Shown here: positions 14,484-30,051 of the stretch, in pieces | Layout: each line of letters starts with the position of its first letter | Position numbering within the stretch: position 1 is the stretch's first letter | From: Actinomycetota bacterium | GTDB lineage: Bacteria > Actinomycetota > Geothermincolia > Geothermincolales > RBG-13-55-18 | Length of the DNA: 64,000 bases | Reading direction: 5' to 3' | NCBI GenBank assembly: GCA_014360655.1 | Contig: JACIXC010000005.1 | Coordinates: forward strand, 124,001 to 188,000 | Notes under the pieces: generated by a model | What the model was told of the DNA's origin: nothing | What the model saw: the letters and a program-made list of their open reading frames with translations, nothing else | Database searches by the model: none | Position numbers and translations under genes: made by a program

Positions 14484-15566
14484 TCAGGAGGTGACGGGCA
14501 TGACCTCGATGTGCAGGTCCCCCTCGGGGGTGAGCTCCCATTCCACCCTGCTCTCGACGTTGAAGGCCTTCTCGAAAAGCCCCTGGGCGAGACCCACGCC
14601 CAGCAGGGGCAGGGCGACGTTGACCATCTTCAGCTCCACGCCCCTCCTGCCCATGCGCAGGTACTCCAGGTATCCCAGTCCCCGTACGGCCAGCTTCTCG
14701 CGCATGCCCTCCTCGGTGGTCACCTCCTCCACCGCGAAGAAACCGGATTTGACGAAGCGCCTCTGGGCCTCCACCACCACGCGGGGGATCTCCTCTCCCA
14801 GCTCGTTCTCCAGCTCCTCGAACACGGGATCCACCATGGCTGGTCCCGTCATGACCATGCGCCTGCCCGTGAGAGAGCTCCTGATGGAACCGTTGGCCAG
14901 GTCCCACTTGAACTCCTGCAGCGCAAGGGGCGCCTCGCAGTGCGGACACTTTTCCAGGCTGCATTTGCCCGGCCTGGGCTCCTGGGCGTAGTCCTTCCAC
15001 CGTAACCTGCTCTTCAACTCAGAGGGGTTCTCGGCCTCGAAGATGGTTATGCGGTAGACACCGGGCGAGGTCTCCTCGTATCTTATGCCCGGCTCCCTCC
15101 CCACCACGGCCTCTATGGCGCCCGCGAAGTTGCCTACCGCCAGGGGCACGGAGTAGGGCCTCTCGGCCAGCACGGTTATGTAATCGTCTTTCGTTCCCTC
15201 GTATCTCACGTCCGCCAGCGTGAGCTTCCCGTATCCCATGGCCTTCCAGATGACGAAGGTCGAGTCGAAAACGACCTGCAGGTCTATTTCCCTTTTCCTG
15301 ATCATCTCGATGACGTCTTCCGGCAAGACGTAACGCATGTACTCCCGGGTATATCTGCGCGAGGCGTCGATGACCAGGTGTTGCACGGACGTGCCTATGA
15401 TCTCCTCGATCCCCCGGTAAACGGGATCGAGGTTGCCGCATTCGAACAACACCAGCCTCTGGCGTTCGTCGCGCCGGGGCCGGATCACCCCTTCCTCCGT
15501 CCAGACATGCTGGCTGCTGACATAGAAGGGAGTTCCGCAATCGGGACAGGTGTCTATTTCCGCCAT
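14484..15566 (-). CDS. zinc-ribbon protein with two V4R-like modules (copy 1)
   Basis: A 360-residue soluble protein not assigned to a named family by me. It has an internal two-fold repeat. Residues 47-71 (DPVYRGIEEIIG ... IDASRR) align with 246-270 (DPVFEELENELG ... VEAQRR), and residues 138-178 (YSVPLAVGNFAGAIEAVVG...) align with the C-terminal GVGLAQGLFEKAFNVE...VEWEL. The pattern (long helix with LGEE, then a glycine-led helix followed by a C-terminal beta strand) resembles the V4R small-ligand domain. Cysteines C7/C10 at the N-terminus and C202/C207/C210 between the modules look like metal ligands. A full-length paralogue is encoded at 28963-30051. A V4R-type sensor or ligand carrier is inference. 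Confidence 0.75.
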   Translation of the reverse strand: MAEIDTCPDCGTPFYVSSQHVWTEEGVIRPRRDERQRLVLFECGNLDPVYRGIEEIIGTSVQHLVIDASRRYTREYMRYVLPEDVIEMIRKREIDLQVVFDSTFVIWKAMGYGKLTLADVRYEGTKDDYITVLAERPYSVPLAVGNFAGAIEAVVGREPGIRYEETSPGVYRITIFEAENPSELKSRLRWKDYAQEPRPGKCSLEKCPHCEAPLALQEFKWDLANGSIRSSLTGRRMVMTGPAMVDPVFEELENELGEEIPRVVVEAQRRFVKSGFFAVEEVTTEEGMREKLAVRGLGYLEYLRMGRRGVELKMVNVALPLLGVGLAQGLFEKAFNVESRVEWELTPEGDLHIEVMPVTS

Positions 15567-15825
15567 ATTTGCTCCCTCTTGATATCTACTTCGTCAATCC
15601 GGGAGAAACGATAAAGTCGCCCGCCGCGATCTCACCGGCACGCAGCAGCAGGCATTTGCATGTCCCGATATCCTGAAGGTCGTTCGCCCTTTGATCTCGC
15701 CGGCAAAACAGCGGTTAGGCTGTCTTATTATATTTAGGGCGAAGATCCATGGCAAGCGAGTAGACGAAGCAGCATCAAGGATACGGCATCAAGGATGGAA
15801 CGGCGATCAAGCGGTGCAGCGTTTC

Positions 15826-28962: not shown

Positions 28963-30051
28963 ATGAAGGGGGTTGTCGTGAAGGGAGTCGAGAGGTGCCC
29001 CGAAGGCGGAGTCCCCAGGCAATTCGCGGATAATCACGTCTGGGCGGGTGGGGGTTTCATCGTGCAGTCCAGCGATACCTCGCACCGCATGGCGTTGATC
29101 GAAAGCGATAACCTGGACGTCCTCTTCAAGGGGATCGAGGATATCCTGGGCCTGCCCATCGAGCGCATCGTCATCGAGACCAAGCGGCGTGCCACGCGCC
29201 AGTATATCGACCGCCTGGTTCCCGACGAGATCAAGGAAAAAGCCATCAACAAGGAGCTGGACATGCAGATCCTGATCGACGCCAACAATGCTGTGGCGCG
29301 CATCATGGGCTACGGGGATGTCTCGCCGGTTGGGTACCGTTACGAGCGTGATGACGACGATTATCTCAGGCAGAGGGTGCGCGAACCCTACTCGGTCCCC
29401 TTGTGGTGCGGGGACATGACAGGCGCGGTGGAGGCCATAACGCGCAGGGACAACGACGTGAAGTACGAGTTCTTGGCAGAGGACACCATCGAGATACTCT
29501 GCATCCCGTGCGAGCATCCCCCGCAGTTCCAGGGCAGGTTACGGCTCAGGGAGTACCACCTGCACGAGGGTGACGTGGAGCTGGAACGTTGCGCCGGTTG
29601 CGGTGGACCTGCCGCCCTCTCCGCTTTCCGGTGGTACCCGGAGCGGGGGGTCATCCGGGACGAGGTCACGGGCCGCCGTGTCGCCATGCTGGGACCTTCC
29701 TACCTGGAGGCGGTATTCGACGAGCTGGAAAGGGAGCTCGGTGAGGAGATACCCCTTGTCGTCGTGGAGGCCCAGCGCCGCTTCGTCAAGTCCGGCTTTT
29801 TCGGGGCTTCGGAGATAGAGAGCGAGGAGCAGTTCCGCAAGCTCCTCGCGCTGCGCGGCCTGGGTAACCTCCGCTCTCTCCAGGTAGGGAGGAACAAACT
29901 GCGCATGGTCATGGAAAATACTGCCATGTACCTCATGCTCGTCGGCCTCATGCAAGGATACTTCGAGACTGTCGTCGGGGGGGAATCCAGGGCGGAATGG
30001 GAATTCTCGGAAGAGGGAGAACTGACCCTGGAGATACACGCCGTCGCCTAG
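28963..30051 (+). CDS. zinc-ribbon protein with two V4R-like modules (copy 2)
   Basis: A paralogue of the protein at 14484-15566, aligning over its whole length. Shared are the N-terminal CP-x-x-G, the HVW motif, the first module (NLDVLFKGIEDILG), REPYSVPLWCGDMTGAVEA, a mid-protein CAGCGG cysteine pair, EEIPLVVVEAQRRFVKSGFF and the C-terminal GLMQGYFETVVGGESRAEWEF. The start is uncertain. ATG 28963 overlaps (ATGA) the stop of a 17-codon leader frame (28913-28966). A CTG at 28900 sits 5 nt after AAAGGAGG in the same frame. GTG 28978 follows AAGGGGG and matches the paralogue's N-terminus best. Function unknown; see the first copy. Confidence 0.75.
   Translation: MKGVVVKGVERCPEGGVPRQFADNHVWAGGGFIVQSSDTSHRMALIESDNLDVLFKGIEDILGLPIERIVIETKRRATRQYIDRLVPDEIKEKAINKELDMQILIDANNAVARIMGYGDVSPVGYRYERDDDDYLRQRVREPYSVPLWCGDMTGAVEAITRRDNDVKYEFLAEDTIEILCIPCEHPPQFQGRLRLREYHLHEGDVELERCAGCGGPAALSAFRWYPERGVIRDEVTGRRVAMLGPSYLEAVFDELERELGEEIPLVVVEAQRRFVKSGFFGASEIESEEQFRKLLALRGLGNLRSLQVGRNKLRMVMENTAMYLMLVGLMQGYFETVVGGESRAEWEFSEEGELTLEIHAVA

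Follow-up and report, generated by a model that had tools for sequence, protein, structure and literature searches.

The phenol sensors MopR and PoxR hold phenol by means of a conserved histidine and a conserved tryptophan. Sensors of the V4R type carry a metal site of three cysteines and one glutamate (PMC10715001), and cysteines are also found in MsvR (PMC3729527). Both V4R proteins and TRAPPC3 form homodimers, which accommodate phenol or palmitate in their cavities (PMC10933270). In the window, i.e. the whole stretch of 64,000 nucleotides from an Actinomycetota bacterium that was analyzed, the following gene was compared with these systems:

14484..15566, minus strand: gene for a two-module V4R-like protein (ATG start, 360 aa), with orthologs of 63-82% identity in 9 relatives

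Beyond doubt, the 360-aa protein consists of two homologous modules. The limits of the modules and of their V4R-like halves were assigned as follows:

15030..15560, minus strand: module 1 (residues 3-179), from hhalign against module 2 and the modelled secondary structure
14490..14960, minus strand: module 2 (residues 203-359), from hhalign against module 1, with the same order of elements as module 1
15033..15236, minus strand: V4R-like half of module 1 (residues 111-178), from the model, Foldseek and profile alignment
14493..14681, minus strand: V4R-like half of module 2 (residues 296-358), from the module-2 model, Foldseek and profile alignment

When the two halves of the single sequence were compared with each other they scored 83, a value reached by 0/1000 shuffles (mean 30, sd 5, maximum 59). 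With family profiles, hhalign aligned residues 3-179 with residues 203-359 over 157 columns (E 6.7e-25), and profiles of 127 members gave E 1.4e-26 for module 1 versus module 2. The initial annotation had already described two homologous halves, and its pairing of residues 47-71 (DPVYRGIEEIIGTSVQHLVIDASRR) with 246-270 (DPVFEELENELGEEIPRVVVEAQRR) was correct, but the repeat unit is larger than it had claimed and begins at the cysteines. Module 1 leads from a CxxC motif through a beta region and helices to a beta-beta-alpha-beta-beta arrangement, residues 111-178 being laid out as GxG, strands, a glycine-led helix and strands. Near-invariant residues recur in pairs across the modules (P13/P213, W22/W221, G26/G226, I28/I228, R37/R236 and G58/G257), and likewise G111 and G113 of module 1 recur as G296 and G298 in module 2.

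Every module opens with its own CxxC:

15537..15548, minus strand: CxxC of module 1 (C7, C10), each Cys present in 125/127 aligned members
14937..14948, minus strand: CxxC of module 2 (C207, C210), present in 127/127 members

C7/C10 are equivalent to C207/C210, so the second cysteine cluster, which had been assigned to the stretch joining the modules, in fact opens module 2. The three exceptions at C7/C10 comprised two sequences that are cut at the start and a paralog in the same window:

28978..30045, plus strand: the window's other family member (42% identity), in which a G takes the place of C10 (CPEGG)

This paralog was the only complete member seen with a broken CxxC. Across 127 members the four cysteines, two per module, are the only conserved ones; C43 is not conserved (Cys in 30/127), and neither is C202, position 202 being mostly I/V. 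The V4R-like halves of these members contain no conserved cysteine that could contribute to the three-Cys-plus-Glu metal site of V4R, the most frequent ones being found at positions 318 (55/127) and 144 (29/127), nor was there a conserved histidine for phenol or as proximal heme ligand, since the best histidine column reached 72/127 (57%). Coevolution analysis (114 effective sequences) recovered the 299-315 hairpin and a few pairs linking one CxxC region to the other (17-212 and 12-212), a signal that is at best weak and not clearly above chance. In the full-length AlphaFold model the CxxC regions had a pLDDT of about 30 or less.

As predicted from structure models and profiles, the modules very probably have a V4R/H-NOX/TRAPP-type fold. 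The full-length AlphaFold model, calculated from a three-sequence alignment (pLDDT 53, pTM 0.54), showed the same arrangement in both halves, i.e. helices followed by strand-strand-helix-strand-strand. With this model Foldseek retrieved PoxR 5frx (E 4e-4), H-NOX 3eee, MopR 5kbe, TRAPP 3kxc and YslB 3njc from the PDB. The model of module 2 alone (six module sequences, pLDDT 61.5) placed human TPC6 (a TRAPP subunit), H-NOX and YslB on top, with weaker matches (best E 5.8e-3). Foldseek TM-scores were low (0.2-0.5), as expected because the models are rough and the matches cover half of the query. When hhalign was run against true V4R proteins from this class, both modules aligned collinearly, with scores of 41.4 for module 2 (P 6.7e-6) and 30.1 for module 1 (P 6.7e-4), compared with best scores of 25.8 and 24.7, respectively, among 41 real protein-family decoys and of 16.4 and 19.6 after column shuffling. 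Module 1 is marginal by itself, and its V4R likeness is carried by its homology to module 2. Taken together, the low-to-medium-confidence AlphaFold models and the profile alignments make a V4R/H-NOX-type fold a well supported prediction.

The proposed resemblance to V4R was supported at the level of the fold, by Foldseek and by profile-profile alignment, and structure prediction returned V4R/H-NOX-type matches and similar halves instead of an unrelated fold. It did not extend to the sequence family, in that the V4R metal cysteines are absent and the halves do not score as V4R domains with the Pfam model: V4R (PF02830) had 0 matches in the genome, although this model detected true V4R proteins in 9 other genomes from the same taxonomic family, and V4R was absent among the 25 Pfam families listed for 40 family members. 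True V4R proteins of ~250 aa, often encoded as tandem pairs, were seen in relatives from the class (L100-L123) and not in this genome.

The initial annotation had suggested a new family, which agrees with the lack of a Pfam or NCBIfam model matching the 14484-15566 protein above its cut-off, and had missed the scale of this family, including the second window copy at 28978-30045. About 20 related copies are present in the genome, with 23 matching stretches in the protein search and 19 in the profile search. By profile search, all 31 of the 31 sampled genomes of the class carry the family (2-53 matches each), and none of the other 365 genomes sampled from the phylum does; within the phylum as sampled, the family is restricted to one bacterial class. 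A single-sequence scan of named bacterial genomes returned a match in the sister species only, no relative was found among viral contigs, plasmids and phages, and PADLOC and PDB sequence searches assigned no family. PDB chain FD15 was considered as a relative (module-profile E 0.0018) but rejected, as no stretch passes alone. In the same genome three tandem members on one strand lie beside a gene that was judged by eye to encode an EamA-like transporter (L041:6296-9841), and arrays of family copies were also seen in relatives (L134, L180). With about 19 genes in this genome, up to 53 matches per relative and a presence in every sampled member of the class, the family is likely to be important to the lifestyle of these organisms.

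On a tree of 253 modules, N and C modules split cleanly with 0 misplaced, one label change and a support of 0.94, which shows that one duplication preceded the expansion of the family. Single-module relatives were not detected by the module profile in the 365 other genomes of the phylum, and the short reading frames within the family proved to be frameshifted two-module genes (L196, L198) or to run off the contig end (L197). Together with the N/C split, the lack of a detected single-module form indicates that the two-module form is ancestral to the family as sampled. The frameshift-split members in relatives (L196:2946-4000 and L198:2016-3109) are possibly assembly errors or decaying copies.

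Since V4R and TRAPPC3 proteins are homodimeric, fusion of two such modules would amount to a pseudo-dimer in one chain, and by this analogy the protein is probably an intrachain pseudo-dimer. Two V4R/H-NOX/TRAPP-like modules, corresponding to the two chains of the homodimer in known relatives, would have been fused once in the ancestor of the class. As each module has exactly two conserved cysteines, and Cys and His are not conserved anywhere else, a single C4 site with two ligands from either module is the simplest arrangement, and it is rather likely that the two CxxC knuckles meet in one shared zinc site of four cysteines that would staple the modules together. The hydrophobic-cavity fold would be kept in each module, which makes small hydrophobic molecules, acyl or aromatic, the most likely ligands; we give such binding about an even chance. 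The bound state might then be relayed by contact with other proteins or with nucleic acid, and each of the ~20 diverged copies per genome might be devoted to a ligand or partner of its own. A role in sensing, rather than as carrier or scaffold, is conceivable at slightly less than an even chance. As a whole, an intrachain pseudo-dimer with a shared zinc site and a hydrophobic ligand is our tentative best explanation. Against it speak the low confidence of the models, in which neither a pocket nor a cluster of the cysteines was visible, the at best weak coevolution of the two CxxC regions, the absence of any enriched neighbor family that would point to a ligand or partner, and the absence of an attached DNA-binding or signalling domain in the members examined.

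Among the alternatives, a zinc-ribbon regulator of transcription or translation appears unlikely; here the CxxC pairs would make up a ribbon that binds nucleic acid, ligand sensing would fall to the V4R-like modules, and the family would be one of one-component regulators expanded in the manner of TetR/MarR. The genes are many, scattered and mostly single, with an unrelated same-strand gene at a distance of 60 bases or less in only 12 cases upstream and 7 downstream of the ~116 members with neighbors, among which tandem family copies were frequent. The protein weakly matches several zinc-ribbon models, and V4R domains do act as sensors in the MsvR and MopR/PoxR regulators. Against this reading, no zinc-ribbon model was matched at cut-off, the CxxC pairs are 196 residues apart, and neither an HTH nor any other attached DNA-binding or signalling domain was found in the members examined. 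The upstream region of the gene contains the following element:

15727..15755, minus strand: sigma-70-like promoter, TTGCCA-17-TATAAT (11/12 matches), ~160 bases upstream of the ATG

A TATAAT-like box was present at the equivalent position upstream of orthologs in 4 relatives, and this promoter-like box was all that the compared upstream regions had in common, with no evident operator, which also argues against a regulator. A search for structured RNA upstream of the gene found none.

An equally improbable reading is that of a ligand carrier, chaperone or assembly factor instead of a sensor, for example a TRAPPC3-like adaptor or a protein that delivers acyl or aromatic intermediates. The fold is that of TRAPP subunits, one of which holds palmitate, and several copies adjoin acyl-CoA dehydrogenase, thiolase or AMP-ligase-like genes (assigned by eye), but acyl-CoA families were not enriched among immediate neighbors relative to distal genes, as was true for every Pfam family in the comparison of 113 adjacent with 111 distal genes. 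One group of members repeatedly adjoins radical SAM/B12-binding and geranylgeranyl-reductase-like genes, again named by eye (L047, L067 and L143).

The gene is encoded alone beside pst, as the initial annotation had stated, with cation ATPase/gltX on one side and phoU on the other and with its own sigma-70-like promoter; the neighbors (pst, phoU, gltX, acyl-CoA dehydrogenase) were named by visual inspection of their sequences, independently of databases. In one relative the pst-phoU operon is duplicated in succession beside the ortholog (L059:1-7326). Nine relatives have the ortholog, often accompanied by a second tandem copy, between the pst-phoU operon and gltX, which would fit a protein that is related to phosphate and belongs to the pst regulon. 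This reading is highly improbable given the promoter-like site of the gene itself, the unrelated locations of other paralogs and a 47% identical copy that lies away from pst in a different family of this order (L063).

Returning to the fused pseudo-dimer, its separate features can each be set against a described system. The CPxCG knuckle is shared with C4 zinc ribbons (zf-Mss51, Zn_ribbon_5 and MJ0042), from which the protein differs in having one knuckle at the start of each module and in matching the ribbon models below their curated cut-offs. TRAPP Bet3/TPC6/TRAPPC3 and YslB are alike in their fold-level matches and as stand-alone small proteins, but have no match in sequence (no TRAPP family was among the Pfam matches listed), and here two modules are fused and carry CxxC pairs. 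H-NOX gave fold-level matches with similar E-values and differs in its heme-binding histidine, which is not conserved here. The XylR/DmpR-type sensory domain with V4R (PF02830), as in MopR, PoxR and CapR, shares the order of secondary structure elements, the best Foldseek matches and a collinear profile alignment; in contrast to these proteins, the family has two modules per chain and an extra CxxC at each module start, and it is without the 3-Cys+Glu zinc site, a conserved phenol-anchoring His and the sigma-54 activator domain. The family thus follows the V4R/H-NOX/TRAPP plan in its architecture while falling outside Pfam V4R. That it represents a class-wide set of fused V4R-like pseudo-dimers, each with one zinc site contributed half by either module, which together form a large private repertoire of small-molecule receptors (~20, up to 53 per genome), is a possibility that we put forward with some doubt. 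A V4R/TRAPP dimer built into a single chain would bear on the evolution of the TRAPP fold.
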